Assembly (NCBI GenBank): GCA_030682655.1
Contig: JAUXNU010000050.1
Coordinates: forward strand, 1 to 35,115
DNA from: Actinomycetota bacterium
GTDB lineage: Bacteria > Actinomycetota > Coriobacteriia > Anaerosomatales > JAUXNU01
DNA length: 35,115 bases
Reading direction: 5' to 3'
A program made the position numbers and the translations under genes. Of this stretch, positions 7,822 to 31,838 are shown piece after piece (position 1 is the stretch's first letter; every line of letters starts with the position of its first letter). The notes under the pieces were generated by a model. The model was not told the DNA's origin, made no database searches, and was given only the letters and a program-made list of their open reading frames with translations.

Positions 7822-7822
7822 C

Positions 7823-9490: not shown

Positions 9491-9504
9491 TTGGAGTACG
9501 CACA

Positions 9505-10452: not shown

Positions 10453-10481
10453 TGCAGCCGGATGCCGTGAAGGAGGCTAGC

Positions 10482-12828: not shown

Positions 12829-13352
12829 GTGTCGTGTTGACCAAGGAGTGCGCCGTCCGCTCCACACTGGAAAGCCTCGAAACGTTCGCCGCCGAGAAGA
12901 TGTGTCGCAAGTGCGTCGTGTGCCCGTTCGCAGTGAGCGAGATGACTCGCACACTTGGCGAGCTCATCACGGGCCAGGGCGTGAGCGGAGACACGGCCAG
13001 GGTCCGAGCAGTGGCGACTGGACTGCAGGAAACGGCGATGTGCAAGCTCGGGCAGGATATCGCAGTCCAAGTCCAGAATGCCCTCGATGACTCCGACGAC
13101 CGATTCCTGAGCCATGAAGCGGGCCGCTGTCCCGATGGGGTCTGCGCCGAACTGCTCTCGTATGTTGTCTCACCAGCCAAGTGCACCCTCTGCGGCGCGT
13201 GCAAGGACGTTTGCCCGGCAGACGCCATCGTCGGGGAGCGTCCCCCTTGGTACATGGCGGACTGCGCGCCATTCCGGATTCGGAGAGACAAGTGCACGAG
13301 ATGCGGGCTATGCGTGCCCGTCTGCGAACCGCAGGCTATCGAAACCCACTAG
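12825..13352 (+). CDS. Small iron-sulfur protein resembling only the C-terminal end of NuoF
   Basis: The 175-residue protein looks like the tail of NuoF without FMN and NAD domains. It has a NuoF-type [4Fe-4S] segment, MCRKCVVCPF (C27, C30, C33), with the distal cysteine in ETAMCKLGQ (C73). A C-P-D-G-V-C pair (102, 107) follows, then a 2[4Fe-4S] ferredoxin with C120, C123, C126, C130 and C157, C160, C163, C167. It starts by ATGA overlap with the full NuoF-like gene. It aligns by eye with that protein's last 170 residues, which suggests a partial duplication that kept only electron-carrying parts. It is intact, in frame and has its own start, so it is not a frameshift fragment. Its specific role is unknown; an extra electron wire between NuoF-like and NuoG-like proteins, or toward CO dehydrogenase, is inference. 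Confidence 0.88.
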   Translation: MSVVLTKECAVRSTLESLETFAAEKMCRKCVVCPFAVSEMTRTLGELITGQGVSGDTARVRAVATGLQETAMCKLGQDIAVQVQNALDDSDDRFLSHEAGRCPDGVCAELLSYVVSPAKCTLCGACKDVCPADAIVGERPPWYMADCAPFRIRRDKCTRCGLCVPVCEPQAIETH

Positions 13353-13364
13353 GAGGCGATCCGC

Positions 13365-15500: not shown

Positions 15501-15501
15501 C

Positions 15502-17457
15502 ATGGACGATGAATGCACCAGTTGTCCCGACTGGAGACTGGCCACCAACTGCAGCGCTAGCGTGCAGATGCTCGAAAAGGCAACTGCAGACGGTGCGTCC
15601 ACCATGTTCCATCGCGCTCGCGAATCCAAGCCCTGCCCCATCGGCTCGAAGGGGCTGTGCTGCTCGGTCTGCGCTCTCGGACCGTGCCGCGTGACCGATG
15701 AAGGAGAGAACTCGAAAGTAGGCGTGTGTGGCGCGACGGCAGCTACCGTCGCAGCTCGGACTTTCGCGCGAATGGTCGCAGCGGGCACGGCCGCCCACTC
15801 CGATCACGGACGCGAGATCACCGAGCTCTTCCTGGCGACCGCCAAGGGCGAGGCACCGGGCTACGAGATCAAGGATGTGCGCAAGCTGCACTCCGTCGCC
15901 GCCGAGTTCGGAATCGACGTTGCTGACAAGGACAAGAACCAGATCGCACTCGAACTCGGCGAGAAGGCGCTCGCCGAGTTCGGTAAACAGCATGGTGAGC
16001 TCACCTTCCTGTCGAGAGCGCCGGCCGCAAGACAGGAAAAGTGGCGCAAACTCGGCATCGCCCCGCGAGGCGTAGACCGTGAAGTAGTCGAGATGCTCCA
16101 CAGAACGAGCGTGGGCGTGGACCAGGAATACAAGAACATCCTGATGCATGCGTCCAGAACCGCGCTTGCCGATGGGTGGGGCGGGTCGATGATCGCCACC
16201 GAACTCCAGGACATCCTCTTCGGCACGCCCAAGCCAGTGCGGTCGAAGGTGAACCTCGGAGTACTCAGTACCGACCAGGTCAACATCATCATCCACGGGC
16301 ACGACCCGATTCTCCCCGAAGCGATGGTAATCGTGTCGCGCGAACCCGAAGCGCTGGAACTCGCGCGATCGGTTGGGGCAACGGGGATAAACATCACCGG
16401 CATTTGCTGTTCCGCCAACGAGATTCTGATGCGCCACGGCGTGCCGCTGGCAGGCAACTATGTTCAGCAGGAACTCGCCATCGCGACAGGAGCGGTGGAG
16501 GCGATGGTCATGGACGTACAGTGTTGCCTCGAGTCGCTCCCAGAGATGGCGAAGTGCTACCACACCGAGATCTTCACCACCTCTGACAAGGCGATGATGG
16601 AAGGGGCGACGCACCTGGCGTTTGAGCCGGCTACGGCATTCGAGACAGCCAGGGAGGTGATTCGCCGAGCCATCGCCCGCTTTCCGCATCGCGGGGCCGT
16701 GAACATCCCCGACCAAGTCATGGAGATGGTCGCCGGCTTCAGCCATGAGACCATCAACTACATCCTTGGCGGCCAGTACCGCTCGTCGTACCGACCTCTC
16801 AACGACAACATCATCTCCGGTCGCATCCGTGGACTCGTGGCCATCGTGGGATGCAACAGCCCTCGTCTGCGGACCGGGCAGGTACATAGCGTGCTCATGC
16901 GCGAGCTGATCGCGAACAACGTGCTGGTCCTCGTGACCGGTTGCGCTGCAATCACCGCCGCCAAGGAGGGGCTGCTCGTTCCCGAGGCAGCCGAGCTTGC
17001 CGGCTCAGGTCTGCGCGAGGTGTGCGAGGCCGTCGGCATGCCGCCGGTCCTGCACTGCGGATCGTGTGTCGACAACAGCCGCCTGCTCACCGCGGTGTGC
17101 GGTATTCAGGCTGAGGGTGGTTTCGGTGACGACATAGCATACATCCCCGCAGCCGGATGTGCGCCGGAGTGGATGAGCGAGAAGGCTGTGGCCATCGGCC
17201 AATACTTCGTCGCGAGCGGCGTGATGGTCGTGTTTGGCAACACCTTCCCGACGCTCGGTAGCAAGAAGGTCTCGGATTTCCTGTTCGATGAGATCGAGGA
17301 TCTTATGGGTGCGCACTGGGTATACGAGCCGGACCCGCTCGAGATGGCGCGCATCCTGATCAAGCGAATCGACGGGGGACGAGCCATACACGGCTACGAC
17401 AAGGCAACGGAGCGGGTCCTCTTCGACATGGACATGCGGAGGGAGCTCGATGTCTAA
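15502..17457 (+). CDS. cooS: Nickel-iron carbon monoxide dehydrogenase catalytic subunit
   Basis: This enzyme interconverts CO and CO2 at the Ni-Fe-S C-cluster and supplies CO to acetyl-CoA synthase. The 651-residue protein has the D- and B-cluster cysteines with normal spacing (C45, C53, C54, C57, C62, C76), the C-cluster histidine region IIIHGHDP, and the cluster-binding GICCSANE, DVQCCLES, VTGCAAITA, HCGSCVDNSR and PAAGCAPEWMSEKA segments. Start is ATG 15502, nine bases after AAGGGAG; an ATG at 15493 in frame is closer to the site. The name acsA is equally apt because acsB follows, overlapping by eight bases. The nearby CooC-type ATPases fit nickel loading. Confidence 0.97.
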   Translation: MDDECTSCPDWRLATNCSASVQMLEKATADGASTMFHRARESKPCPIGSKGLCCSVCALGPCRVTDEGENSKVGVCGATAATVAARTFARMVAAGTAAHSDHGREITELFLATAKGEAPGYEIKDVRKLHSVAAEFGIDVADKDKNQIALELGEKALAEFGKQHGELTFLSRAPAARQEKWRKLGIAPRGVDREVVEMLHRTSVGVDQEYKNILMHASRTALADGWGGSMIATELQDILFGTPKPVRSKVNLGVLSTDQVNIIIHGHDPILPEAMVIVSREPEALELARSVGATGINITGICCSANEILMRHGVPLAGNYVQQELAIATGAVEAMVMDVQCCLESLPEMAKCYHTEIFTTSDKAMMEGATHLAFEPATAFETAREVIRRAIARFPHRGAVNIPDQVMEMVAGFSHETINYILGGQYRSSYRPLNDNIISGRIRGLVAIVGCNSPRLRTGQVHSVLMRELIANNVLVLVTGCAAITAAKEGLLVPEAAELAGSGLREVCEAVGMPPVLHCGSCVDNSRLLTAVCGIQAEGGFGDDIAYIPAAGCAPEWMSEKAVAIGQYFVASGVMVVFGNTFPTLGSKKVSDFLFDEIEDLMGAHWVYEPDPLEMARILIKRIDGGRAIHGYDKATERVLFDMDMRRELDV

Positions 17458-19630
17458 GATCATCGCGAGCGCGGCGATACGCGGTGCACACAGTATCGTC
17501 GGTAAGGCCGAGCAAGCCCTCGCCGAGGCCATGGAGGCACACGGCGCGACGACGGCTGTTGAATTCCCGAACACCGCCTACTATCTCCCCGTCATCTACG
17601 GCCTCACAGGCGAGAAGGTGGAGCGCCTCTCGGACATGGACAAGGTACTCGGCATGGCTCGAGACCTGCTGCCAGATGCGCCTTCCGACAAGATCTGGCT
17701 GCCGTACCTCGGCCCGGCGCTAGACGCCGGGATAGCCACCCTCCTGGCCGAGGAGTGCATCGAGGCGCTCCGCTACGTCGATAGCTCCCCAGTCACCGAT
17801 GGCATCTGGTTGGGCGCGGCCGACGACGTCATCATGCGCGCGCGCGGAGTGGAGTTCGTCGACGGCTCAGCACCCGGATTCGCCGCCGTGGTCGGCGCGG
17901 CGCCAAATCCGGAGACCGCGGCACACCTCGCCCGCGAGATGCAGGAGAAGATGCTCTACGTCTTCATGGCCGGACGCGACGGGAAAGACAGCTTCGCAGA
18001 GCAGCTCGATGAAGCGGGAGTGCAGCTTGGGTGGGACACGCGCCTCGTTCCATTCGGACCGGAGGTATACGGACACATCTATTCGCTCGGGTTCGCGACG
18101 CGGGTGGCGATGGCGTTCGGGGGCGTCCAGCCGGGAGACTACGAACGCATCCTCAAGTACAACAAGAACCGGGTGTTCGCATTCGTACTGGCCATGGGAG
18201 AGGTTACTGACGAGTGGTACGCAACCGCTGCGGGGGCGATCTCCTACGGCTTCCCGACGATTTCTACTTCCGACATCCCGCAGATTCTGCCCACCGGCGT
18301 GTGCACCTACGAGCACGTGGTATCCAATGTCTCCTGCGAGGAGCTCGTACAAAGGGCTATCGAGGTCCGCGGGCTCAAGATCAAGGTCATCGACATCCCC
18401 ATCCCCGTGCCCTTTGGTCCCGCATTCGAGGGCGAGCGGGTTCGCAAGGAGGACACCCACGTCGAAGTGGGAGGTCAGCGCAGCCCGGCTTTCGAGTGGC
18501 TGCGCGGCCGGGACTCCTCAGAGGTGGAGGACGGCAAGATCGAACTCCTCGGGCCTGACGTCGCCGACGTCGAAGAGGGGTCGCTGCTGCCATTCGGCAT
18601 CGTGGTCGACGTGTTCGGCCGCAAGATGCAAGACGATTTCGAGTCTGTTCTCGAACGTCAGTTCCACCACCTCATGAACTTCGCCGAGGGCGTCTTGCAC
18701 ATGGGCCAGCGCGACATGATCTGGGTCCGCATATCCAAGAAGGCCAAGGAAGCAGGCTTCTCCTTCAAGCACCTTGGCGAGATCCTACGCGCCAAGCTCC
18801 TCGACGAGTTCGCCGCAATCGTCGACAAGGTCCAAATCACGGTATACACCGATGAAAAGGAAGTGCTGGCGATCCGAGAACAAGCCCTGGCGTCCTACGA
18901 GGCCCGGGACGAACGCATGGCGGGACTGACCGATGAAGCGGTCGACGTGTTCTACTCATGCAGCTTGTGCCAGAGCTTCGCGCCGAACCACATATGTGTG
19001 GTCACGCCGGAGCGTCTGGGGCTGTGCGGCGCATACAACTGGCTGGACGCCAAGGCCAGCAATGAGCTCAATCCTGTCGGTCCCAACCAGCCGATCGCCA
19101 AGGGCGAGCTGGTCGACGCGAAACTCGGCCAATGGAGCGGTGTGAACGAGTTCATCCACGAGAAGTCGAATCGCAACGTCGAGCGCATGAGTGCGTACTC
19201 GCTGATGACCGACCCCATGACCTCGTGCGGCTGCTTCATGTGCATTGTGGCGCTCATGCCCATGTGTAACGGCGTGATGATCGTGAATCGCGAGTATCCG
19301 GGTATGACCCCGTCCGGCATGAAGTTTTCCACGCTCGCCGGCACCATCGGCGGCGGTTTGCAGGTGCCGGGCTTCATGGGCATCGGCCGTGGCTATATCT
19401 CGAGCAAGAAGTTCCTGTCCGCCGAAGGCGGCTTCAGCCGCGTGGTCTGGATGCCCAAGGAGCTCAAGGAACTCATGCGTGACCATCTTGCCGACACGGT
19501 CGCCGACATCGGTGACCCTGACTTCCTCGACAAGATCGCCGATGAGACAATCGCCGATACCGAGGAGGGCGTTCTCGAGTACATCATGAGCGTCGGCCAT
19601 CCTGCCCCGGCAATGGAATCGCTGTTCTAG
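17450..19630 (+). CDS. acsB: Acetyl-CoA synthase (CODH/ACS catalytic subunit)
   Basis: This subunit assembles acetyl-CoA from CO, the corrinoid-bound methyl group and CoA at the Ni-Ni-[4Fe-4S] A-cluster. The 726-residue protein is of bacterial full length. The A-cluster ligands are all present: C504, C507, C516 and C526 for the cubane and the C593-G594-C595 motif for the distal nickel, each two positions off the Moorella numbering. The long N-terminal domain that contacts CO dehydrogenase in bacteria is retained, unlike archaeal forms. The start overlaps cooS by eight bases with a ggaggg site inside cooS. acsC follows after a 31-base gap. Confidence 0.97.
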   Translation: MSKIIASAAIRGAHSIVGKAEQALAEAMEAHGATTAVEFPNTAYYLPVIYGLTGEKVERLSDMDKVLGMARDLLPDAPSDKIWLPYLGPALDAGIATLLAEECIEALRYVDSSPVTDGIWLGAADDVIMRARGVEFVDGSAPGFAAVVGAAPNPETAAHLAREMQEKMLYVFMAGRDGKDSFAEQLDEAGVQLGWDTRLVPFGPEVYGHIYSLGFATRVAMAFGGVQPGDYERILKYNKNRVFAFVLAMGEVTDEWYATAAGAISYGFPTISTSDIPQILPTGVCTYEHVVSNVSCEELVQRAIEVRGLKIKVIDIPIPVPFGPAFEGERVRKEDTHVEVGGQRSPAFEWLRGRDSSEVEDGKIELLGPDVADVEEGSLLPFGIVVDVFGRKMQDDFESVLERQFHHLMNFAEGVLHMGQRDMIWVRISKKAKEAGFSFKHLGEILRAKLLDEFAAIVDKVQITVYTDEKEVLAIREQALASYEARDERMAGLTDEAVDVFYSCSLCQSFAPNHICVVTPERLGLCGAYNWLDAKASNELNPVGPNQPIAKGELVDAKLGQWSGVNEFIHEKSNRNVERMSAYSLMTDPMTSCGCFMCIVALMPMCNGVMIVNREYPGMTPSGMKFSTLAGTIGGGLQVPGFMGIGRGYISSKKFLSAEGGFSRVVWMPKELKELMRDHLADTVADIGDPDFLDKIADETIADTEEGVLEYIMSVGHPAPAMESLF

Positions 19631-19661
19631 CAACCGATCTCGAACGGAGGCGTGAAACCAG

Positions 19662-21008
19662 ATGGCTCTCAGTGGATTGGACATATTCAAACTGCTGCCG
19701 AAGACCAACTGCGGTGATTGCGGGGTGCCGACCTGTCTCGCGTTTGCGATGAAGCTCGCGCAGGCTCAGGCGGAACTCGACTCGTGCCCACATGTCTCCG
19801 ACGAAGCCAAAGCCGCCCTCGGTGAAGCGTCCGCCCCACCGATGCGCGCCGTGACCGTCGGCGTCGGTGACGACGCCTTCACGGTTGGCGAAGAGACGGT
19901 TCTCTTCCGCCACGAGAAGACATTCGTGAACCCCTGCGCGATCGGTGTCTCGGTCGACTCGGGCGCCTCCGACGACGAGATCGATGCCGTCGTAACAGAC
20001 GCGAAGGCCGCCTCGTTCGAGCGCGTGCAGATGCAGCTGCGGTGCGGCTTCGTGGCCGTGCGCTCCTCGGCAGACGCAGGGCGCTTTGCAGCCGTCGCCG
20101 AGCGCGTGTCAGGTGCGACCACGCTCCCCCTCGTGCTCATGGCCGAGGACCCAGCGCACATGGCGGCGGCACTCGAGGTAATCGGCGACAAGCGCCCGCT
20201 CATCCATGCTGCCACCGAATCCAACGCCGACGCGATGATCGGACTCGCCGCAAAGCACTCCTGCCCGCTGGCGGTCCGTGGCGCCGGCCTCGACGCCGTC
20301 GCCGCACTGACCGAGAAGGCAGCGGCGGCCGGTCTGAAGGACCTCGTGATCGACTCGGCGCCAGCCACGCCCGGCGCCGCGCTTCGGGACCGTGTCTTCG
20401 CCCGCCGTGCCGCACTCAACCAGAAGTTCGCACCTCTCGGCTACCCGACCATCACGTTCCCGGGCGAGATCTCCGGCGGCGACGAAATGCTGGAGGCCGT
20501 CTACGGAGCGCTCGATGTCGTCAAGTACGGCAGCATCATCGTGCTCTCAGGAGCGGAACCCTGGCGCACGCTTCCGCTGCTCGTGCTTCGGCAGAACACC
20601 TTCACGGACCCGCAGCGCCCGATGCGGGCCGAGTCCAAGATATACGAGTACGGCACGCCCGGTCCGGACGCACCGTTCTTGGTCACAACGAACTTCTCGC
20701 TCACCTACTTCATCGTCTCCTCGGAGATCGAGTCGACCAAGACCGGCGCCTACCTCGGCGTCGTCGAATCCGAGGGTCTCTCGGTTCTCACCGCATGGGC
20801 TGCAGGGAAGTTCATCCCCGAAAGCATCGCCAAGTTCGTCGGCGGTAGCGGGATTGCCGAGAAGATCGGCCACCGGGAAATCATCATCCCCGGAGCGGTC
20901 GCTCAAATCAGCGGGGAGCTCGCCGAGGAGCTCGACGGGTGGAACGTAGTGGTCGGCCCCTACGAAGCTTCCGACATCCCCGCCTTCCTCAAGCGCAAGG
21001 CCGGCTAG
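19662..21008 (+). CDS. acsC: Corrinoid iron-sulfur protein, large (gamma) subunit
   Basis: This subunit carries the cobamide and a [4Fe-4S] cluster and delivers the methyl group to AcsB. In 448 residues it shows the N-terminal cluster motif with C17, C20, C25 and C42 (KTNCGDCGVPTCLAFA), then a TIM barrel and the C-terminal B12-binding part with TTNFSLTYF and the IIIPGAVAQISGELAEEL region. Length is typical. GGAGG precedes the ATG. Its partner AcsD is encoded about 9 kb upstream, and AcsE, which methylates it, about 4.4 kb downstream. Confidence 0.96.
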   Translation: MALSGLDIFKLLPKTNCGDCGVPTCLAFAMKLAQAQAELDSCPHVSDEAKAALGEASAPPMRAVTVGVGDDAFTVGEETVLFRHEKTFVNPCAIGVSVDSGASDDEIDAVVTDAKAASFERVQMQLRCGFVAVRSSADAGRFAAVAERVSGATTLPLVLMAEDPAHMAAALEVIGDKRPLIHAATESNADAMIGLAAKHSCPLAVRGAGLDAVAALTEKAAAAGLKDLVIDSAPATPGAALRDRVFARRAALNQKFAPLGYPTITFPGEISGGDEMLEAVYGALDVVKYGSIIVLSGAEPWRTLPLLVLRQNTFTDPQRPMRAESKIYEYGTPGPDAPFLVTTNFSLTYFIVSSEIESTKTGAYLGVVESEGLSVLTAWAAGKFIPESIAKFVGGSGIAEKIGHREIIIPGAVAQISGELAEELDGWNVVVGPYEASDIPAFLKRKAG

Positions 21009-21027
21009 GACGCCCGCGCAGCAGAAT

Positions 21028-23067
21028 GTGGTGCCCGCAATGCTAATAGCTCGCCCCGACAGAACAAGCGACCCGGAGTCACGGGATGAACACCTGTTCG
21101 CACCGTGCCGTGCGCGGTGCCCCGTGCACGTCGACGTGCCCGGCTACCTGGCCGCCATCGCCGAGGGCCGGTTCGTCGACGCGCTTGAGATCGTCCTGGA
21201 GCGCAACCCGTTGCCATCGGTCTGTGGCCGGGTGTGTCTGCGCCCCTGCGAAGACGGCTGCAGGCGCTGCCTTCTCGATGAGCCGGTCGCGATTGCGGCG
21301 CTCAAGCGCGCTGCTGCTGACATCGGCGTCTATCCTCCGGCGCGCCCCGTGCGCCCTCGACCAGAACGCGTCGCAATCGTCGGCGGAGGCCCCGCAGGCC
21401 TGACGGCCGCCCGCGACCTGGCCAATCTCGGGCTGTCAGTCAGCATCTACGAGTCCAAGCCTCGCCTCGGCGGGATGCTTCGCTACGGTATTCCGAACTA
21501 CCGGCTGCCCGACTACGCGCTGGACCGCGACATCAACTTCATACTGTCGCACGGCATCGAGGTGCACACCGGCGTCCGGATCGGCCGCGACATTACGATC
21601 GAGGAACTCAACGCTACCCACAACGCGGTCCTTGTCACCGTCGGACTCCAAGACAGCCGCGCGCTACCCATCCCGGGAGCGGACCGGCCGCAGGTGCTCA
21701 CGGCGCTGCCCTTCCTCGAAGCGTGCGCAAACGGTGATCGAATGGATCTTGGGACGCGCGTCGTGGTCATCGGCGGCGGCAATGTCGCGATGGACGTGGC
21801 ACGCGCGGTGCGGCGCTTCGTCGTCGACGAGGTCCGCGTGGTGTGCCTGGAGAGCCGCGACGAGATGCCCGCCGCCGAGCATGAGGTCCTTGACGCGGAG
21901 ATGGAGGGCGTCACCGTCCACTGCTCGTGGGGACCGCGCGAGGTCTTCGGCACTGACCATGTCGAGGGCATGCGCGCAGTGAGGTGTGACCGCGTGTTCG
22001 ACGACGAGCGCCGGTTCGCCCCCGTCTTCGACGAGACCATCGCCAAGGAGTTCAAGGCCGACACGGTGATCTTTGCTATCGGGCAGGGACCCGATGTCGA
22101 GGGGCTGGGTCTCCCGACGACGCCGCGCAAGTCCGTCCTGGTCGACCCGGTGGACCTCAAGACGCCGCTGGACAACGTATACGCAGCGGGCGACATCATC
22201 AACGGCCCGACCAAGATCATCGACGCCATCGCGTCGGGTCACCGGGCGGCAGCTGCAATCTACCGCGATCTCACTGGAGACGGCGAGATACTCGAGGCGC
22301 TTGACGAGGAGAACGCGGTCCTTGGCAAGGTGCCTGACACTATGGCCGCCGAGCTCGAGACACGCCGACGTATCCAGATGGAGCGACTCGAGCAGTGGGA
22401 GGCGATCCACACCTTCGACGAAGTCGAACTGGGCTACACCGAGTTCGAGGCAGCCCGCGAAGCACAGCGCTGTCTGTCGTGCACTGCAGGCGCCCGGCTC
22501 GCACGCGAGAAGTGCGCGTCATGCCTCACCTGCACGCGCGTGTGCCCTCACGGCGCCGCGTGCATCAATATGGGCGGCTACCTGTACTTCGAGATCGAGG
22601 CGTGCCATGCCTGCGGCGCGTGCGTCTCCCAGTGCCCCGCCCAGGCAATCACTCTGGAAGGCGCCTCCGAAGAAGACCTCTCGCGCCGCGTGCAGCGCAA
22701 GCTCATCGACCGCGGGCTCGATACGTCGCTCGTCTTCACGTGCGGCCACGCGCCCGACACCATTCCCGAAGCGGGTCTCGACTTCCGCGCGGTGCAGGTC
22801 TCGTGTCTGCTGCGCGTTAGCGAGCGCTCGGTCTTTGAGGCGCTCGATGAAGGTGCCTCGCGCATCGTGTTCACGCGCTGCACCGAGGGTGACTGCCGCT
22901 TCCCTCATGCACAAGAACTGGTGTCGAAACGTATCGACCACATCGGAAGCATGCTCGCCGAGATCGGCATGCGCGACTCGTTCCGCGTAACGGCCCTCCC
23001 GGCCACACAGGACGCCGGCTCGCAGCCTGCAGACTCGCAGAGCGCCCCGGAGGTAGATGGCCGATGA
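21028..23067 (+). CDS. GltD-like flavoprotein fused to 2[4Fe-4S] ferredoxin and MvhD-like domain
   Basis: About 675-679 residues with three parts. First, a GltD/NfnB-like pyridine nucleotide-disulfide oxidoreductase: N-terminal cluster cysteines (C27, C31, C66, C70, C74, C78), FAD site GGGPAG (119-124), second Rossmann motif VVVIGGGNVAMDVAR and a C-terminal FAD motif YAAGDI. Second, a 2[4Fe-4S] ferredoxin (C496, C499, C502, C506; C526, C529, C532, C536). Third, an MvhD-like domain with C572, C593, C618 and C623 (CTEGDC). Such parts occur in HdrA/MvhD electron-confurcating complexes. It overlaps metV by ATGA, so it very likely feeds electrons to methylene-THF reductase. HdrB and HdrC are absent. 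The start is uncertain: GTG 21028 or ATG 21040, neither with a good ribosome site. Confidence 0.9.
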   Translation: MVPAMLIARPDRTSDPESRDEHLFAPCRARCPVHVDVPGYLAAIAEGRFVDALEIVLERNPLPSVCGRVCLRPCEDGCRRCLLDEPVAIAALKRAAADIGVYPPARPVRPRPERVAIVGGGPAGLTAARDLANLGLSVSIYESKPRLGGMLRYGIPNYRLPDYALDRDINFILSHGIEVHTGVRIGRDITIEELNATHNAVLVTVGLQDSRALPIPGADRPQVLTALPFLEACANGDRMDLGTRVVVIGGGNVAMDVARAVRRFVVDEVRVVCLESRDEMPAAEHEVLDAEMEGVTVHCSWGPREVFGTDHVEGMRAVRCDRVFDDERRFAPVFDETIAKEFKADTVIFAIGQGPDVEGLGLPTTPRKSVLVDPVDLKTPLDNVYAAGDIINGPTKIIDAIASGHRAAAAIYRDLTGDGEILEALDEENAVLGKVPDTMAAELETRRRIQMERLEQWEAIHTFDEVELGYTEFEAAREAQRCLSCTAGARLAREKCASCLTCTRVCPHGAACINMGGYLYFEIEACHACGACVSQCPAQAITLEGASEEDLSRRVQRKLIDRGLDTSLVFTCGHAPDTIPEAGLDFRAVQVSCLLRVSERSVFEALDEGASRIVFTRCTEGDCRFPHAQELVSKRIDHIGSMLAEIGMRDSFRVTALPATQDAGSQPADSQSAPEVDGR

Positions 23068-23717
23068 TCGTCGTGCGCCAGAAACCCATCGACGAGATCT
23101 GCGCGATGATCGGCCGCCACAAGCGCGTGCTGCTCGTGGGCTGCAACACGTGTGCAGCCGTCTCGCTTGCGGGCGGCGAGACCGAGGTCGACACGCTCCT
23201 GCAGCTTCTCAAGCTCGCCACCAAGCGACGTGGCACGTCAGTGGAGTTCGCACCGGCGGTACTGCAACGACAGTGCGAGCCGGAGTACATCGAGTGTTTG
23301 CAGGACGAAAGCTACGACGCCCTGCTCTCGCTGGGATGCGGCGCCGGGGTCGCGCTCCTTGCCGAGACCGTCGGCAAGCCAGTGTACCCAGCGCTCGATA
23401 CGCTGTTCATCGGTGCGGCGAAAGGACTCGCAAGCTGGCGCGCAGAATGTTCCGCGTGCGGGAAGTGCGTCCTTGGCGTGACTGCGGGCATATGTCCGAT
23501 CACCCGGTGCGCCAAAGGGATTCTCAACGGCCCGTGCGGCGGCGTGTCCGATGGCACATGTGAGCTCGGCGACCGGCCGTGCGCGTGGGTCGAGATCTAC
23601 GAGCGGCTCGAAGCGTACGAGCGGACGGACGAGTTCGACGCGATCAACCCGCCCAAGGACAACTCGACGCACGCCATCTGCGAGTGGGACATGTCCGAGA
23701 AGGACGATGACCGATGA
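23064..23717 (+). CDS. metV: MetV: methylene-THF reductase partner (MTHFR C-terminal-like)
   Basis: This 217-residue protein belongs to the cysteine-rich family that pairs with MetF in acetogens to form the MetVF methylene-THF reductase core. It has an early C27-x2-C30 pair (GCNTCAAVS) and a cysteine-rich second half, CSACGKCVLG, GICPITRCAKG, NGPCGG and later cysteines, expected to bind iron-sulfur or zinc. Start and stop overlap both neighbours by four bases (ATGA), so the fusion flavoprotein, MetV and MetF are likely made in fixed ratio. The assignment rests on family pattern and context. Confidence 0.93.
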   Translation: MIVVRQKPIDEICAMIGRHKRVLLVGCNTCAAVSLAGGETEVDTLLQLLKLATKRRGTSVEFAPAVLQRQCEPEYIECLQDESYDALLSLGCGAGVALLAETVGKPVYPALDTLFIGAAKGLASWRAECSACGKCVLGVTAGICPITRCAKGILNGPCGGVSDGTCELGDRPCAWVEIYERLEAYERTDEFDAINPPKDNSTHAICEWDMSEKDDDR

Positions 23718-24580
23718 GCCTCCGCGACGCACTGGAATCGGGGCGCTTCGTGGTCACGTCCGAGGTAGGACCCCCGAAAGGCACCAACATTGCGGCGATG
23801 CTCGAAACCGCCGAGATGCTCCGCGGGCGCGTCGATGCGCTGAACGTCACCGACAACCAGGCCGCCGTGATGCGGCTCTCCACGCTCGCAGCGTGCGCGC
23901 ACCTGAAGAACGCCGGGTTCGATCCGGTCCTACAGGTCACCTGCCGGGACCGCAACCGCCTCGCGCTGCAGTCCGATCTCCTTGGCGCTGCTTCGTTCGG
24001 GATCACCAACGTGCTGGCGCTAACCGGCGACCATGTCGCCGTCGGCGACCACCCGCAAGCCAAGGGGGTGTTCGACCTGGAGTCTGTGCAGCTGCTTGAG
24101 GTGATCGCGGCGCTCAATGCCGGCGCCGACGCTGCGGGCAAGGAGCTGCATGGGACGCCCGACTTCGTGTTCGGTGCGGTCGTGACGCCGGATGCGCTCC
24201 CCCTGCGACCCCAGCTGGCCAAGTTCCGCAAGAAGGTGGCGGCTGGCGCGCAGTTCTTCCAGACGCAGGCCGTCTACGACGCGGAGTCGTTCAAGCGATT
24301 CATGGAGCACGCCCGGCAGTTCAACGTCAAGATCATGGCGGGCGTGGTCGTGTTGCGCTCTGCAGGGATGGCGAAGTTCATGAACCGCAGCATCCCGGGT
24401 ATCGTGGTTCCCGACGAGGTCATCGCCGAGCTAGACAGCTCGTCGGACCCGCAGGCGACCGGCATCGAGATCACCGCCCGGTTCATCGGCGAAGTGCGCG
24501 ACCATTGCGACGGAGTACACATCATGGCCGTCGGCGCCGAGCATCTCGTACCGACCGTGCTCGACGCGGCCGGACTCTAG
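23714..24580 (+). CDS. metF: 5,10-methylene-tetrahydrofolate reductase
   Basis: This FMN- or FAD-dependent TIM-barrel enzyme reduces methylene-THF to methyl-THF, the last folate step of the methyl branch. The 288-residue protein has the catalytic glutamate in TSEVGPPKG (E17), DNQAA, LQVTCRDRNR and LALTGDH, followed by FFQTQAVYD and MAGVVVLRSAGMAKFM. Its length matches bacterial MetF without a regulatory domain. It lacks any sign of its own NADH site, which fits dependence on MetV and the upstream flavoprotein fusion. It overlaps metV by four bases; cooC follows after 16 bases. Confidence 0.95.
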   Translation: MSLRDALESGRFVVTSEVGPPKGTNIAAMLETAEMLRGRVDALNVTDNQAAVMRLSTLAACAHLKNAGFDPVLQVTCRDRNRLALQSDLLGAASFGITNVLALTGDHVAVGDHPQAKGVFDLESVQLLEVIAALNAGADAAGKELHGTPDFVFGAVVTPDALPLRPQLAKFRKKVAAGAQFFQTQAVYDAESFKRFMEHARQFNVKIMAGVVVLRSAGMAKFMNRSIPGIVVPDEVIAELDSSSDPQATGIEITARFIGEVRDHCDGVHIMAVGAEHLVPTVLDAAGL

Positions 24581-24596
24581 GGAAGGGCGTGTACGC

Positions 24597-25382
24597 GTGA
24601 AGATCGCTATCTCGGGCAAGGGGGGTGTCGGCAAGACCACGCTGTCTTCGGGCTTGGCCCGCGCGTGGGCGTCCGAGGGTCGTCGTGTGATCGCTATCGA
24701 CGCCGACCCGGACGCCAATCTCGCCACCGCGCTCGGCGCCGACGCCGCGGCAGCGGCCGCATGCGTGCCGCTTTCCGAGATGGACGACCTCATCGAGGAG
24801 CGCACCGGCGCCCGCCCGGGCCAGGGCGGCATGTTCAGCTTGAACCCGGACGTCTCCGACGTGGTCGAACGGTGCGGTACCGACATCGGTGGCGTGACCC
24901 TGCTACGCATGGGGACGGTCGAGCGCGGCGGATCGGGCTGCATGTGCTCGGAGGGCGTGTTCCTCAAAGCATTCATGCACCACTTGCTCGTCGAACGAGA
25001 CGACGTCGCGATACTCGACATGGAAGCCGGAATCGAGCACCTTGGCCGAGGAACAGCGGAAGCTGTCGACGTGCTCGTCGTGGTCGTGGAACCCGGAGCG
25101 CGAAGCGTCCAGACGGCGCACCAGGTAAACTCCTTGGCGCAGGACATCGGCGTGCGCGAAGTCCTGGCCGTGGGCAACCGCGTACGGGGTAGCGAGGACA
25201 TCGCCTACCTGCGCGAGGCGCTCGGGGAGATCGAACTCATCGGCGCACTGCCAGAAAGCGAGGCTGTACGTAAGGCGGACCGCGAGGGCCGCTCGCTGTC
25301 CGGTACAGACCAGACGTTCACCGACGCGCTGCGCACCATTGCGGCGGCGCTCGTAGGCGAATCCGAGCGTTCGAGAGAATGA
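24597..25382 (+). CDS. cooC: CO dehydrogenase nickel-insertion ATPase, CooC family (CMC type)
   Basis: This is the second MinD-like nickel chaperone of the cluster. The 261-residue protein has the Walker A GKGGVGKT (8-15), DADPDANLATALG (37-49) and the C-x-C nickel motif within GSGCMCSEG, then DMEAGIEHLGRGTA. This set is typical of CooC from CO dehydrogenase operons. The start is GTG at 24597 after GGAAGGG. It overlaps the acsE region by a few bases. Having both this and the CYC-type ATPase (7823) suggests one serves CooS and the other AcsB, which sequence alone cannot prove. Confidence 0.93.
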   Translation: MKIAISGKGGVGKTTLSSGLARAWASEGRRVIAIDADPDANLATALGADAAAAAACVPLSEMDDLIEERTGARPGQGGMFSLNPDVSDVVERCGTDIGGVTLLRMGTVERGGSGCMCSEGVFLKAFMHHLLVERDDVAILDMEAGIEHLGRGTAEAVDVLVVVVEPGARSVQTAHQVNSLAQDIGVREVLAVGNRVRGSEDIAYLREALGEIELIGALPESEAVRKADREGRSLSGTDQTFTDALRTIAAALVGESERSRE

Positions 25383-25393
25383 GGAGGACTCAG

Positions 25394-26218
25394 ATGCTTG
25401 TCATCGGCGAGAAGATCAACATCATGAGCAAGACCATCGGACCGGCAATGAAGGAGCGTGACCCCGAGCCGATCCGCCAGATGGCGCACAGGCAGGTCGA
25501 AGGTGGCGCAAACGTGCTCGACATCAACCTGGGGCCGGCAACCAAGAACGGCCCCGAGATGATGGAGTTCGTCGTCAGAACCGTCCAGGAGACGGTACCG
25601 GACATCCGGCTCTGCCTCGACACGATGAACCCGGATGCGATGGCGGCAGGACTAGCGCTGTGCAACCTGCAGCCCATCATCAACTCCACGTCCGCCGAAC
25701 GGGCGCGCCTCGAGACCTTCCTGCCTCTCGCCAAAGAGTACGGCGCCGACATCATCGGCCTGGCCATGACCGAGGCGGGAGTCAGTCGCGACGCGAACGA
25801 ACGGCTCATGGCGGCGACCGAGATCATGGGCGCGATGATGGAGTTCGACGTGCCGCTGGAGCGCCTCTACCTCGACCCGCTGCTCCTGCCGATCGCGGTC
25901 GCCCAACAGCAGGCGGCCGAGGCTATCGAGTCGATCGCCATGTTCAAGCAGCTCAACGAACCGCCGCTCAAGACCGTGGTCGGGCTCTCGAACATATACA
26001 ATGGGTGCCCCGAGCACGTGAAGTCCCCGTTGGCAGCGGCTCTCTTGGCCCTTCTGATTCCTGTCGGCCTCGATGCGGCGATCATGGACCCGAACGACGA
26101 GCTGCAGATGGCCGTCGTCAACCAGGACCAGTCGGTGCTTGCCGCCGACACCACGGTCGAGAAATCGATGGCCGTGCTTAGAAACGAGACACTGTACTGC
26201 AACTCGTACCTCGACTGA
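25394..26218 (+). CDS. acsE: Methyl-THF:corrinoid iron-sulfur protein methyltransferase
   Basis: This cytosolic pterin-binding TIM-barrel enzyme moves the methyl group from methyl-THF to cobalt of AcsCD. The 274-residue protein has the characteristic opening LVIGEKINIMSKTIGPAM, the pterin-binding GANVLDINLGPA, LDTMNPDAMAAGL, PIINSTSAE, and GLSNIYNGCPEH followed by DAAIMDPND. Length is close to Moorella MeTr (262). The ATG at 25394 lies six bases after GGAGG; an in-frame ATG at 25379 inside cooC is less likely. It ends the acs group; the formate dehydrogenase group starts 25 bases later. Confidence 0.96.
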   Translation: MLVIGEKINIMSKTIGPAMKERDPEPIRQMAHRQVEGGANVLDINLGPATKNGPEMMEFVVRTVQETVPDIRLCLDTMNPDAMAAGLALCNLQPIINSTSAERARLETFLPLAKEYGADIIGLAMTEAGVSRDANERLMAATEIMGAMMEFDVPLERLYLDPLLLPIAVAQQQAAEAIESIAMFKQLNEPPLKTVVGLSNIYNGCPEHVKSPLAAALLALLIPVGLDAAIMDPNDELQMAVVNQDQSVLAADTTVEKSMAVLRNETLYCNSYLD

Positions 26219-26243
26219 TCGATCGTCGCCGAGAGGACCGGCA

Positions 26244-26777
26244 GTGAGCCAGGACCGTTGCACATGCGCCGAGGAGCAGGAAACCCGCGAGATCGATCTC
26301 GCGTTGCTCGACCCTGTCTTCGAGCGCTACGCGGACGATCCCGGAGCACTCATCCCGGTGCTGCAGGCAACTCAGGAGACCTACGGCTACCTCCCCGAAC
26401 CGGCGATACGCGCAGTCGCGAGTGCGCGCAACGTCCCCCTCTCGGAGGTCTACGGCGTTGCCACGTTCTACGCGCAGTTCCACCTGAGGCCGCGTGCCGA
26501 AACGATCGTTCGCATCTGCCATGGCACGGCCTGCCACGTGCGAGGCGCTCCCGAGGTGACCCGCGCGGTCGTCGAAGAACTCGGCGTGAAGGTGGGCGAG
26601 ACGACTCAAGACCTGGCGTTCACAATTGAGTCTGTCGCGTGCGTGGGCTGCTGCTGTCTCGCACCCGTCATGCTCGTCGGTTCCGAAACCTACGGACAGC
26701 TGGACGTAGTGCAGACCCGTCGCATAGCCGCCTCCCTGCGCGAGAAGGCAGATGAGCGAAAGGATGCCCTGGAGTGA
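26244..26777 (+). CDS. NuoE-like [2Fe-2S] subunit (copy 2, formate dehydrogenase-linked)
   Basis: The 177-residue thioredoxin-fold ferredoxin has the cluster pairs CHGTAC and CVGCC, after VYGVATFYAQFHLRP, as in NuoE/HndA/FdhE2-type subunits. GTG at 26244 follows gagagg; longer readings in the same frame run into acsE and are not believable. It overlaps the NuoF-like gene by GTGA. It is clearly related to the copy at 10482 but differs over most of its length, so the two are not a recent duplication. Context with fdhA points to an NAD(P)-linked formate dehydrogenase. Confidence 0.93.
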   Translation: MSQDRCTCAEEQETREIDLALLDPVFERYADDPGALIPVLQATQETYGYLPEPAIRAVASARNVPLSEVYGVATFYAQFHLRPRAETIVRICHGTACHVRGAPEVTRAVVEELGVKVGETTQDLAFTIESVACVGCCCLAPVMLVGSETYGQLDVVQTRRIAASLREKADERKDALE

Positions 26778-28597
26778 GCGGTCCGGTTCCCGTTGAATTG
26801 CGTACCCTGGGAGAGTCCGTCGTCATCCGTGTCTGCACAGGCCCGGGATGCGTGGTGAACGGATCACTGAACGTAGCTGACCGTTTCGAGGAAGTCATCG
26901 CGGCGGTTGGAGCCGAAGACCGCGTACGCGTTGTGCGGACGGGTTGCCACGGGCTGTGCGAGGAAGGGCCCCTCGTCGCCGTCTCTCCACAAGACATCTT
27001 CTACCCGCGCGTGAGCGAGGAGATGGCCGCCCCGATCGTCGAACGACTCATGGAGGATGGCTCCTTCGTGGAGGAGTATCTGTTCCGCCCATCCGAGAAC
27101 GAGGCGCCGATCGAGCGCTATTCCCAGCTCCCCTTCAATCTCACGCAACAACGCATCGTGCTGCGCAGCTGCGGGGTGATCGACGCCGAAGACATCGATG
27201 ACGCAATCGCGTGCGGTGCCTACGACGGCCTGCGCCGCGTGCTCGCTGGGTTCACTCCCGATGCCCTGATCGATGAGATAGAGAGATCCGGGTTGCGTGG
27301 CCGAGGCGGCGCGGGCTTTCCCACTGGCCGGAAGTGGCGGCTCGCTCGCCAAGCCGATGGAGAGCCAAAGTACGTCATATGTAATGCCGACGAAGGCGAT
27401 CCAGGCGCGTTCATGGACCGCAGCGTGATAGAGGGCGACCCGCACAGCGTCCTCGAGGGCATGGCGATCGCCGCGTTCGCCATCGGCACCGATACCGGGT
27501 ACGTCTACGTCAGGGCCGAGTACCCGCTGGCGGCGAGGCGGTTGCGTATTGCAGTCGCGCGGGCCGAGGAGCGCGGGCTGCTTGGCGACAGGATCCTCGG
27601 CAGCGACTTCTCCTTCTCCGTGCGCGTCACGGAAGGCGCTGGCGCCTTCGTATGCGGCGAGTCCACCGCGTTGATGTTCTCCATCGAGGGCAAGCGCGGG
27701 ATGCCGCGTGTCACACCGCCCAGGTCGGTAGAGAAGGGTCTCTGGGGCAAGCCGACGGTGCTCAACAACGTTGAGACGTTTGCCAACGTCCCCTGGATAG
27801 TGACACAAGGGCCGGACCGGTTCCGCGGTTTCGGCACCGAGAACTCCTCAGGCACCAAGGTCTTCGCCCTGACGGGCAGGGTCAGGAACACCGGACTCAT
27901 CGAGGTTCCCATGGGCACCACGATACGCGAGATCGTCTATGACATCGGCGGCGGCGTCCGGGGAGGCCGGCGGTTGAAAGCCGTGCAGATGGGCGGCCCT
28001 TCCGGTGGATGCCTGCCGGAGAAGTACCTCGACCTCCCCGTGGACTTCGACTCGCTCGACAGCGTCGGCGCGATGATGGGCTCGGGCGGACTCGTGGTCC
28101 TTGACGAGGGTGACTGCATGGTCGACATGGCCCGCTACTTCCTAACGTTCACGCAAGACGAGTCGTGCGGAAAGTGCGTGCCCTGCCGAATTGGAACCAA
28201 GCGCATGCTGGAGATTGTCACGCGCATCACCAATGGCAGCGGCGAAGAGGGCGACATCGAGAAGCTCGAACGGCTCGCGAGCGATGTGAGTCGCACTTCG
28301 CTCTGCGGCCTCGGCCAGTCGGCACCCAACCCAGTGCTCACCACGATCCGCTACTTCCGCGAGGAGTACGAGGAGCACATCCGGGAGAGCCGCTGTCGGG
28401 CCGGTGCCTGCGCAGAGCTGTCCCGATTCATCATCCATGCCGAGGCCTGCAAGGGCTGCACGGTCTGCAAGAAGCGCTGTCCGGTAGGCGCCATACGGGG
28501 CGAGATGAAAGAACCACATGCGATCAGCGTGGATCGCTGTATCAAGTGCGGCGTATGCGTTGAACACTGTCCGTTCGACGCGATCGAGAGAATCTAG
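26774..28597 (+). CDS. NuoF-like NAD(P)/FMN subunit with ferredoxin tail (copy 2, formate dehydrogenase-linked)
   Basis: The 607-residue protein has the N-terminal thioredoxin-like [2Fe-2S] domain (CTGPGC, TGCHGLC), the FMN/NAD domain with GRGGAGFPTGRKW, the [4Fe-4S] site ESCGKCVPC (C465, C468, C471) with LCGLGQSAPNP, and a 2[4Fe-4S] tail (C559, C562, C565, C569; C589, C592, C595, C599). All expected ligands are present. It starts at GTG 26774, overlapping nuoE by four bases. With the selenoprotein FdhA and the NuoE copy it would form a soluble NAD(P)-dependent, possibly ferredoxin-bifurcating, formate dehydrogenase that supplies formate to Fhs. Confidence 0.94.
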   Translation: MSGPVPVELRTLGESVVIRVCTGPGCVVNGSLNVADRFEEVIAAVGAEDRVRVVRTGCHGLCEEGPLVAVSPQDIFYPRVSEEMAAPIVERLMEDGSFVEEYLFRPSENEAPIERYSQLPFNLTQQRIVLRSCGVIDAEDIDDAIACGAYDGLRRVLAGFTPDALIDEIERSGLRGRGGAGFPTGRKWRLARQADGEPKYVICNADEGDPGAFMDRSVIEGDPHSVLEGMAIAAFAIGTDTGYVYVRAEYPLAARRLRIAVARAEERGLLGDRILGSDFSFSVRVTEGAGAFVCGESTALMFSIEGKRGMPRVTPPRSVEKGLWGKPTVLNNVETFANVPWIVTQGPDRFRGFGTENSSGTKVFALTGRVRNTGLIEVPMGTTIREIVYDIGGGVRGGRRLKAVQMGGPSGGCLPEKYLDLPVDFDSLDSVGAMMGSGGLVVLDEGDCMVDMARYFLTFTQDESCGKCVPCRIGTKRMLEIVTRITNGSGEEGDIEKLERLASDVSRTSLCGLGQSAPNPVLTTIRYFREEYEEHIRESRCRAGACAELSRFIIHAEACKGCTVCKKRCPVGAIRGEMKEPHAISVDRCIKCGVCVEHCPFDAIERI

Positions 28598-28659
28598 GAC
28601 GAGGTGCTCTTCGGCGAGACGCCCAGTCCGCCGGGAGCCAGGAAGGAAGGGATGAGCCG

Positions 28660-29085
28660 ATGAGAGTCAGAGACATCATGACAGCCCGCGTCGTCGCAAT
28701 CGCACGCGAGGCCACGGTCGCCGAAGCCGCCCGCAAGATGCGAGACGAGCGAGTGGGCTCAATCCTCGTGGTCGAGGACGACCAGCTTGTGGGTATCCTC
28801 ACCGACCGTCAGATAACCCACAGTGTGACTGCCGATGGTCTCGATCCGCGCACCGTAGCCGTAGGCGACGTCATGCACGAGGATTTCGTCCCGCTTGAGC
28901 CGGACATGGATCTTCTCCAGGCGATGCGGCTTATGCGCGAGCTGACGATGCGCCGTCTACCGGTGGTCGAGAATGGCAAGCCGGTCGGCATCGTGTCCGT
29001 ATCGGACATCGCGGACTTCGTACGGGAGGGCGTGGACACGATACTGATGGAAGGCAGCGTGCGAGCGCGCCGGAAAAAAGCCTAG
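28660..29085 (+). CDS. Two-CBS-domain protein
   Basis: The 141-residue protein is two CBS domains with little else: DIMTARVVAI to GILTDRQIT, and DVMHEDFVPL to GIVSVSDIADF. Such stand-alone pairs bind adenine nucleotides and report energy state to partner proteins. It is inserted between the NuoF-like subunit and FdhA. That position suggests regulation of formate dehydrogenase or of the electron-transfer complex, but the target is unknown. A ggaagg site lies about nine bases before the ATG. A lysine/arginine-rich tail ends the protein. Confidence 0.9.
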   Translation: MRVRDIMTARVVAIAREATVAEAARKMRDERVGSILVVEDDQLVGILTDRQITHSVTADGLDPRTVAVGDVMHEDFVPLEPDMDLLQAMRLMRELTMRRLPVVENGKPVGIVSVSDIADFVREGVDTILMEGSVRARRKKA

Positions 29086-29117
29086 GACTGTCCGCAGGAG
29101 CACTGAGAGAGGCGCAA

Positions 29118-31838
29118 GTGACACAGACATCCGCAGAGAGGATCACTCTCACTATCGACGGACGGTCGATCGAGGCGCGCGCCGGGCAAATGGTGCTCGA
29201 GGTCTGCCGAGAGGTCGACATCCGCATACCGACCCTGTGTCACGACCCGCGCCTGGAACCCTACGGAGGCTGCCGACTCTGTCTGGTGCAGATCGAGGGC
29301 GTGCGCGGCTTCCCCATTTCGTGTACCACACGCGCCGCCGACGGCATGATCGTGACCACCAACAGCGAGGAGATAGCTCAGCTGCGGCGTTCCATCGTCG
29401 AGCTGTTGCTCTCCGACCACGAGCTGCGCTGTCTGTCGTGCGACTCGGTCGGCGCGTGTGCTCTGCAGGATATCGCCTACGAGTTCGGGATTGAGGAGTC
29501 GCCCTACCAAGGAGAGCGGCACCGTGTATGGACGGGAGTCGACGACGGGCTGATCGAGCGCGACTACGCCAAGTGTATCTCGTGCGGCCGCTGTGTTCGC
29601 ATCTGCCACGAGGTCCAAGGCTGCGACGTCTACGGATACACCGATCGCGGCTTCGAGGCAATACCAAACACTCCGTATGGCACGTCGCTGCTCGACGCCG
29701 GCTGCGAGTTCTGCGGCCAGTGCGTGTCGACGTGTCCCGTCGGCGCGCTGACCGACCGCATGCGGCGCTTCACGGGCCGAGCCTGGGAGCTGGAGCACAC
29801 CGACACGACCTGCGGCTATTGTGGTGTCGGCTGCACGATCACGTACGCACACAAGAACGGCACTATCACCGGCGCCTCGGCGCCGCTGGACCGTGGTGTC
29901 AACCAGGGAAACCTCTGCGCCAAGGGGCGCTACGGCTACGGGTTCGCCGCGCATCCCGACCGCCTCACGACCCCGCTCGTCAGACGCGACGGCGAACTCA
30001 CGCCTGCGACCTGGGACGAAGCGATCGCCGCGGTCGCTGCCGGCATCCGCCGTGTGGTCGACGAGCACGGCCCCGACGCGTTCGCCGCGCTTGCCTCGGC
30101 CAAGTGCACGAACGAGGAGAACTACGCCTTCCAGAAGATGATCCGCGCGGGAGTCGGCACGAACAACGTCGACCACTGCGCCCGGCTTTGACACAGCTCC
30201 ACGGTGGCCGGTCTGGCCGCCTCATTCGGAAGCGGAGCGATGACGAACTCGATCGGCGACCTCGGGCAAGCCGACGTCGTCTTGGTCGTGGGCTCGAACA
30301 CCACCGAAGCACACCCGATCATCGGCATCGAGCTCAAGAAGGCAGCGCGACGCGGGACCGAGATCGTCATCGTCGATCCGCGGCGCATCCGGCTCGTAGA
30401 CCATGCGTCGCAGTGGTTGCAGATCGACCCGGGCACCGACATCGCACTCGTCAACGCGATGATGCGGGTCATCGTCGACGAGGGCCTCGCCGACGACGCC
30501 TTCATCGCCGAGCGCACCGAGGGCATCGAGGAACTGCGCGCCGTGCTTGCCGGGTATGATTCCGACACGGTCGCGGAGATCGTCCGCGTACCTGCCGAGG
30601 AGATTCGCGCCGCTGCGCGCACCTACGCGCGCGCAGACGCCGCCGCGATCGTGTACTGCATGGGCGTCACGCAGCACGAGTCGGGTACGGCGCAGGTCCG
30701 GGCGCTTGCCAACCTCGCGATGCTCACCGGCAACATCGGGCGACCCGGCACCGGCGTCAACCCGCTCCGCGGCCAGAACAACGTCCAGGGTGCGTGTGAT
30801 ATGGCGTGCTTGCCGGTCAACCTGCCCGGCTACGCCAGCGTCACGGACGATGTCGCACGCGCAAGGTTCGAGAAAGCGTGGGGCGCCACGCTCTCCTCGG
30901 CAGCGGGTCTGACCCTGACGGAGATGATGGACGCAGCGGCGACCGGCCACGTGCGAGCCATGTACGTGATGGGCGAGAACCCCGTGCTGTCCGACCCCGA
31001 CCAGGCGCACGTCGTCGAGGCACTTGAGAAGCTCGATTTCCTCGTCGTGCAGGACCTCTTCCTGACCGAGACGGCCGCGCTGGCCGACGTCGTACTGCCA
31101 GGAACGGCATCTGTCGAGAAGAACGGCACGTTCACGAACACCGAGAGGCGAGTCCAGCGCGTGCACGCCGTGGTTCCGGCACCCGGAGACGCACGCAGCG
31201 ACCTCGAGATCATCGGACGCGTCTCGACCGCTCTCGGCTACGAGATGCCATTCGCCGAACCCGCCGAGGTCATGGCCGAGATAGCCGGGGTCACGCCCTC
31301 GTACGGCGGCATCAGCTACGAGCGTCTCGAGTCCGGCGGCCTCCAGTGGCCATGCCCGACAGAGACGCATCCGGGTACACCCATCCTGCATGTCGACAGC
31401 TTCACCCGCGGGCTCGGCGCGTTTGCGCCGACGGAGTACCTCCCCCCGAGCGATGCAGCTGGCGGCGGCTACCCGTTCGTACTGACGACCGGCCGCGAGC
31501 TGTGGAACTACCACACGAACAGCTTGACGGGACGCTCGGCTGGACTCGCCGAACTCAATCCGGTGGCTCACGCCGAGATACACCCGGCCGACGCAAACCG
31601 CCTCGGACTGTGCGACAACGACTGGATCGAGATAGCGAGCCGCCAAGGAACCCTCTGCGTCCAGGTGCGCATCTCCCAGCGCCCGAAGCGAGGCCTGCTG
31701 TTCATGCCGTTCCACTTCGGGAAGGCGCCCGCAAATCGGCTCACATCGACCCGTCGTGATCCGGTCGCCAAGATTCCCGGGCTCAAGTACAACGCAGTGA
31801 GTGTTCGAGCGTGCGAAGCGCCAGAGGCCGGCGTGTAG
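29118..31838 (+). CDS. fdhA: Formate dehydrogenase alpha subunit, selenocysteine-containing (TGA at 30189-30191 read as Sec)
   Basis: This subunit reversibly converts CO2 and formate at a molybdenum or tungsten bis-pterin centre. Read through the in-frame TGA, it has 906 residues: NuoG-like wires ([2Fe-2S] C41, C52, C55, C69; H101, C105, C108, C114; 2[4Fe-4S] C153-C163 and C196-C206), a [4Fe-4S] site C232, C235, C239, C267, then the catalytic domain. Sec358 sits in DHCARL-U-HSSTVAGLAASFG, the classical FDH active site, and a dinucleotide-binding domain forms the end. Without read-through the catalytic domain would be lost. A SECIS hairpin follows the TGA. The GTG start at 29118 follows gagagagg. 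The stop is three bases from a convergent gene. Confidence 0.95.
30203..30221 (+). promoter_or_regulatory. Bacterial SECIS hairpin for Sec358 of fdhA
   Basis: A seven-pair stem (30203-30209 with 30215-30221, one G-U pair) closes the loop GGTCT, 11 bases after the TGA at 30189-30191. The GGUCU loop is the SelB-recognised loop of the E. coli fdhF element, and spacing from the UGA is in the normal range. The hairpin lies inside the coding frame, as expected for bacteria. It implies SelA, SelB, SelD and tRNA-Sec elsewhere in the genome. Confidence 0.88.

Follow-up and report, generated by a model that had tools for sequence, protein, structure and literature searches.

A GltD-ferredoxin-MvhD fusion protein as a candidate NADH-input subunit of MetVF-type methylene-tetrahydrofolate reductase in an actinobacterial Wood-Ljungdahl operon

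The electron donor of the MetVF-type methylene-tetrahydrofolate (methylene-THF) reductase sets the ATP yield of an acetogen, and its identity is disputed. Ferredoxin is used by the purified enzyme in vitro, yet is forbidden by the energy balance on H2 + CO2 (PMC8760232), and for the Moorella complex a second substrate has yet to be identified (PMC13040438). What, then, would feed the MetVF encoded at positions 21028 to 24580 of contig JAUXNU010000050.1, from an Actinomycetota bacterium of the order Anaerosomatales (assembly GCA_030682655.1), where the gene ahead of metV and metF encodes a fusion of GltD-like, ferredoxin and MvhD-like domains (termed ‘GFM’ here)? The stretch analysed (‘the window’) spans 35,115 nucleotides, a single contig from a genome of 2.94 Mb. 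As argued below, it is fairly likely that GFM is the NADH-fed electron-input subunit of this reductase, and that it passes electrons on in a linear, non-bifurcating manner.

Three open reading frames, at 21028-23067, 23064-23717 and 23714-24580, make up the unit, and the four bases ATGA are shared at both of its joints. The original prediction, which had described a GltD-ferredoxin-MvhD fusion locked to metV and metF by two four-base overlaps, with HdrB and HdrC missing, was thus borne out by the reading frames and by Pfam; among the annotated frames of the window no gene for HdrA was found either.

21040..23067, + strand: GltD-ferredoxin-MvhD fusion, GFM (Pfam, alignments, structure model)
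21100..22239, + strand: Fer4_20 + Pyr_redox_2 (GltD/NfnB-like) region of GFM, residues 25-404 (Pfam, profile alignment)
22504..22653, + strand: 2[4Fe-4S] ferredoxin region of GFM, residues 493-542 (Pfam, alignments)
22738..23004, + strand: MvhD/FlpD region of GFM (Pfam, alignments)
23064..23717, + strand: metV, PF12225 (Pfam 1e-32; ATGA overlap with the GFM gene)
23714..24580, + strand: metF, PF02219 (Pfam 4e-37; ATGA overlap with metV)

The true start of GFM is probably the ATG at 21040, rather than the GTG at 21028 with which its frame opens, because homologous proteins begin, in alignment with relatives, at the residue encoded there. Pfam divides the protein into Fer4_20 (residues 25-99, 1.8e-20), Pyr_redox_2 (114-404, 1.3e-30), a Fer4 dicluster domain (493-542, 2e-6) and a fused MvhD domain of the FlpD family (586-659, 9e-12); no NCBIfam model scored above its cut-off. 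Within the GltD region lie six N-domain cysteines, the FAD motif GxGxxG, the sequence GGGNVAMD, a CLES motif of the NADH type, Arg159 and Lys93. The ferredoxin cysteines (496, 499, 502, 506, 526, 529, 532 and 536, with RCLSC at 481-485 just before them) are all kept across 31 aligned members, save for one exchange of Cys for Gly. In the MvhD domain, Cys572, Cys593, Cys618 and Cys623 are conserved within the order; among the 31 the first three are nearly invariant, and the last is found in 26. An AlphaFold model of GFM (pLDDT 86.6, pTM 0.86) has NfnABC, StnC and NfnL as its nearest solved folds, and a profile built from 14 GFM sequences matches NfnABC, StnC, SudA/NfnB and NfnL best, so that Fer4_20 and Pyr_redox_2, together with the fold, place the protein in the GltD/NfnB-like flavoprotein superfamily. 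The adjacent metV and metF are the gene pair of a MetVF-type enzyme, for which methylene-THF reductase activity is predicted. MetV has no relative among PDB structures, and its predicted model is weak (pLDDT 67.7).

The association of the three genes extends well beyond this genome. In a sample of 60 relatives from the order, examined together with the source genome, the full-length fusion is encoded in 14 relatives as well as in the source (separated by a gap in score from GltD-ferredoxin proteins that lack the MvhD part), and all 15 loci have metV adjoining. The order acsC-GFM-metV holds in 14 of 14 of these relatives, with metF next wherever the contig reaches, and the proteins are 42-95% identical. 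The overlap of GFM with metV measures 4 bases in 12 of the relatives and 13 bases in two, and that of metV with metF measures 4 bases in all 13 in which it could be measured. Such recurrence of gene order and overlap is far beyond chance. Between these conserved genes, none of the 14 relatives was seen to carry an HdrA core, HdrB or HdrC. MetV is present in all 61 genomes, usually as a separate copy.

In a wider sample of 396 genomes from the phylum, 35 further genomes match GFM at E < 1e-110; of the 29 loci that were fetched from these other actinobacterial groups, 26 have metV immediately after GFM and the remaining three end at a contig edge, so that metV stands next to GFM in every uncut locus. 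The fusion also accompanies metV at four loci in Chloroflexota (among them L183/L209, L184/L210 and L202). The domain order that the original prediction proposed to seek beside metVF in other genomes was therefore found in the order, the phylum and beyond. Two of the Chloroflexota loci bear on the partner of GFM: L209 is a stand-alone unit of GFM, metV and metF with no acs genes around it, and L202 (4608-8372, Anaerolineae) encodes GFM, MetV and MetF with no acs gene near. Because the three genes stay together there, GFM appears tied to MetVF rather than to AcsC. Correlations of pairwise identity did not discriminate, being 0.87-0.89 for GFM with MetV, MetF and AcsC alike. In another Chloroflexota locus (L050), fragments of metV and metF precede a GFM-like gene with FlpD in a separate frame, and in L210 (5276-13000) an HdrA-like protein, MvhD, GFM, MetV and an HdrC-HdrB-like fusion are encoded together, a cluster that could be an intermediate between the Moorella enzyme and the Hdr-free form.

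The original prediction had left the donor as NAD(P)H; the flavoprotein type was confirmed, and the donor can be narrowed to NADH as the predicted one. In the NADPH enzymes NfnL, StnC, NfnABC and those of the SudA type, the second dinucleotide motif ends in a strand of the YRR type; in 44 of 46 GFM homologues a CLES or CLE variant, whose acidic residue closes the second strand, stands in place of RR. The GltD domain of Moorella thermoacetica HdrA (L168), a protein reported to oxidise NADH (PMC9430772, PMC8760232), has ACLES, and in an approximate-likelihood tree of GltD domains it shares one branch with GFM and with the complex-I-linked GltD of the order, separate from an Nfn/Stn-like RR branch (support 0.95-0.99 at the base). 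The GltD domain of L169/L202 falls on the NADPH branch, which suggests that the same architecture was assembled there independently; because this Chloroflexota domain belongs to the other branch, the architecture may have arisen more than once. The distinction between GxGxxA and GxGxxG was also tried as a test for NAD or NADP and was rejected, since Moorella HdrA and NADPH enzymes both have GGGN.A.

Armed with these assignments, a path for the electrons can be proposed. NADH would reduce the FAD of the GltD domain, from which two electrons would leave singly by way of the N-domain with its two [4Fe-4S] clusters, cross the 2[4Fe-4S] ferredoxin domain and reach the [2Fe-2S] MvhD domain. The latter would dock on MetV, which would hand the electrons to the FAD of MetF for the reduction of methylene-THF to methyl-THF. 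The complex itself, its use of NADH, the path and its direction are all predictions drawn from sequence; the domains, the fusion, the conserved operon, the cofactor motifs and the kinship to the GltD domain of Moorella HdrA are observed directly. Transfer from NADH (-320 mV) to methylene-THF (-200 mV) is exergonic (PMC8760232) and requires no coupling, and the order of domains along the chain matches the relay.

Four other readings have to be set against this one. That NADPH is the donor, as in NfnL, StnC and GltD, seems quite unlikely: the GGGNVA of GFM does fit a GxGxxA motif that some authors link to NADP (PMC7483475), and the RR of L045, L151 and L169 supports it, but RR has given way to an acidic residue in nearly all homologues, and the NADH oxidiser of Moorella carries the motif of GFM. 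(The GFM proteins of L045 and L151 are natural candidates for a switch to NADPH.) It is also unlikely that reduced ferredoxin is the donor, alone or with NADH in a linear scheme in which the main task of GltD is to connect ferredoxin with the pool of NADH. In vitro, reduced ferredoxin does serve purified MetVF enzymes as donor (PMC8760232, PMC8515935), and the ferredoxin domain of GFM is conserved; yet GltD would then be needless, while complete FAD and dinucleotide sites are found in every member, and the position of the ferredoxin domain, after GltD and before MvhD, is the one that a relay predicts. Least probable is that GFM works for a different enzyme encoded in the operon, through reactivation of the corrinoid protein or through CODH/ACS, its place beside metV being a matter of operon history. 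For this speak acsC, its upstream neighbour throughout the actinobacteria, and RACo, which has its own gene yet needs a reductant; against it stand the Chloroflexota units without acs genes described above, the coupling overlaps, which run from GFM to metV and not to acsC, and the membership of MvhD and GltD in the known set of MetVF partners in Moorella.

The remaining alternative is that GFM-MetVF bifurcates or confurcates, splitting electrons of NADH (or NADPH) between methylene-THF and, via the ferredoxin domain, ferredoxin. Bifurcation has been proposed for type IV enzymes (PMC8760232), the free energy of the reaction would suffice, and the 2[4Fe-4S] domain could meet ferredoxin. Arg159, moreover, is present in 46 of 46 GFM proteins and is the equivalent of NfnL R201, the arginine near FAD N5; it is not diagnostic, however, as R239 of StnC occupies the same place in an enzyme whose flavin is non-bifurcating (PMC10482914). 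The ligand position of the proximal cluster holds Glu126 in NfnL (PMC9503767) and Lys170 in non-bifurcating StnC (PMC10482914): all 46 GFM proteins have lysine there (Lys93), aligned with K170 of StnC and not with E126 of NfnL. The unit contains a single flavoprotein domain, with no NfnA, HdrA core (the TrxR-like part), HdrBC or HydB-like partner, and so differs from a bifurcating NfnB/NfnL flavoprotein in both the glutamate and the NfnA subunit. With the lysine of StnC in place of the glutamate of NfnL, and no second acceptor branch, bifurcation by GFM itself is unlikely, and the suggestion in the original prediction that the complex might bifurcate was not supported. Cys66 of GFM was considered as a stand-in for the NfnL glutamate and dropped, the residue being Ile or Leu in 13 of the 31 aligned members.

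Several observations nonetheless weigh against GFM as a linear, NADH-fed input to MetVF. Its specificity for NADH is read from a single motif, and two members (L045, 1215-3200, and L151, 1411-3477) have YRR instead of CLE. The fourth MvhD cysteine is missing from five of the 31 aligned proteins. A second metVF in the source genome (L033, 1592-7274, contig G000:C37) lies downstream of homocysteine-biosynthesis-like and MetH-like genes and lacks GFM, so that MetVF of this lineage may use another donor. Finally, the original prediction had named a wide occurrence of the fusion without metVF as evidence against itself; on this point the actinobacterial loci (15/15 and 26/26 with metV) are mostly in its favour, but in L049, L051 and L182/L211 (two Chloroflexota genomes and one Bacillota genome) no metVF accompanied the fusion over the stretches that were read. 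Taken as a whole, the earlier interpretation is partly supported.

The surroundings of the unit are those of a nearly complete Wood-Ljungdahl operon.

4142..31838, + strand: surrounding Wood-Ljungdahl operon, fhs through fdhA(Sec)
19662..21008, + strand: acsC (corrinoid protein large subunit), upstream neighbour of GFM in actinobacteria (annotation of window and relatives)

Its genes run in the order fhs, RACo, cooC, folD, acsD, a nuoEF-like block, cooS, acsB, acsC and GFM, and then metV, metF, cooC, acsE, nuoEF-like genes and fdhA, the gene of a probable selenocysteine formate dehydrogenase. The last (29118-31838) has an in-frame TGA at 30189-30191 (HCARL-U-HSSTVAGL), which is likely to encode selenocysteine, and the same small gap between two formate dehydrogenase frames recurs in relatives. 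Between 10450 and 17457, cooS is an outlier: it is 51-54% identical to relatives that resemble one another at 65-90%, whereas AcsB shows no such departure. The NuoE-NuoF-ferredoxin-NuoG-like block ahead of cooS is absent from relatives; the CODH was apparently replaced in place, together with this NADH-dehydrogenase-like module. At 171-593 a repeat of 36-38 nt occurs six times, with a CRISPR-like spacing of 65-67 nt, alongside one inverted partial copy. Elsewhere in the genome, CCG-domain proteins are located only in other contexts, away from the GFM locus. The only other FlpD gene encodes an HdrA-like/ferredoxin/FlpD protein (537 aa) adjoining a [NiFe]-hydrogenase large subunit gene (L203, G000:C151, 1736-5638); the possibility that the MvhD domain of GFM is an electron input from hydrogenase was rejected, this gene and its hydrogenase being on another contig.

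If the proposal holds, Wood-Ljungdahl actinobacteria, a group known mainly from genomes, would have GFM-MetVF as their standard enzyme and would thereby gain a concrete bioenergetic model. With such a compact natural enzyme, free of Hdr and equipped with an NADH-type input of its own, the donor question would become testable with three genes, and the module that oxidises NADH would be separated from the HdrABC core, the putatively bifurcating part; as a purifiable complex, it could reveal the docking of MvhD on MetV directly. An earlier drawing of the gene probably exists: gltD is among the abbreviations of a figure that shows Wood-Ljungdahl gene neighbourhoods from uncultured actinobacteria (Merino et al. 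2020, PMC7325909), and the same article describes hdrA-mvhD-metVF-hdrCB in one genome; the portions of it available here propose neither the GltD-ferredoxin-MvhD fusion nor a role in NADH input.

Comparison with known systems places GFM among several relatives. The closest in fold and profile are StnC of the Stn transhydrogenase and NfnABC (8oh5, 9bov, 9n5u), in which a GltD domain likewise shuttles electrons along an iron-sulfur chain with lysine at the proximal cluster; these, however, are NADPH-binding proteins with an RR motif, and their electrons go to a NuoG/NuoF-like module instead of MvhD and MetVF. A GltD-ferredoxin protein in a complex I (nuo) operon of the source genome (L034, G000:C174, 7149-9305) is 38% identical to the corresponding part of GFM and has a CLE motif, but lacks the MvhD domain, has histidine at the position of Lys93 and sits among nuo genes; proteins of this kind are found throughout the order. 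Archaeal HdrA of type Ia (an HdrA-MvhD fusion, PMC12054007) also joins a flavoprotein, a C-terminal ferredoxin and MvhD in one chain, although its flavoprotein is HdrA, not GltD, and its partners are HdrBC. In a deltaproteobacterial metagenome-assembled genome (L055, 667-5573), nuoE, a NuoF-GltD fusion (1069 aa), metV and metF stand in a row, the fusion there being seemingly another NADH-type input for MetVF.

Reviews up to 2026 recognize four types of methylene-THF reductase in acetogens, namely MetF, MetVF, RnfC2-MetVF and HdrABC-MvhD-MetVF (PMC8760232, PMC13040438), and by gene content GFM-MetVF fits none of the latter three. It is not MetVF alone (type II), as GFM precedes metV in every uncut locus found in the order and in other actinobacteria. 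It is not type III, as no rnfC2 lies next to metVF or elsewhere in the window (the only RnfC_N match in the genome is a 498-aa RnfC-like frame that immediately follows the gene for a [NiFe]-hydrogenase large subunit on another contig, L208, G000:C45, 511-3163). The type III enzyme of Acetobacterium woodii is nonetheless a useful parallel, with three genes and one flavoprotein/iron-sulfur subunit expected to bring in NADH without bifurcation, and GFM-MetVF is predicted to be NADH-dependent and non-bifurcating in the same way; the input proteins differ, GltD-ferredoxin-MvhD being unrelated to RnfC-like proteins in fold and cofactor set. With type IV of Moorella thermoacetica (MetVF, HdrABC and MvhD, with GltD inserted in HdrA), the unit shares the MetVF core, MvhD (here as a fused domain), a GltD of the same branch and the CLES motif; it lacks the TrxR-like core of HdrA, HdrB and HdrC, and carries GltD, ferredoxin and MvhD in one protein. 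GFM would thus fill the role of A. woodii RnfC2 with modules of Moorella HdrA and MvhD, and on balance GFM-MetVF may well represent a fifth type among the methylene-THF reductases of acetogens, a minimal form built of three subunits, with the part of the Moorella complex that oxidises NADH released from HdrABC and fused into a single wire.

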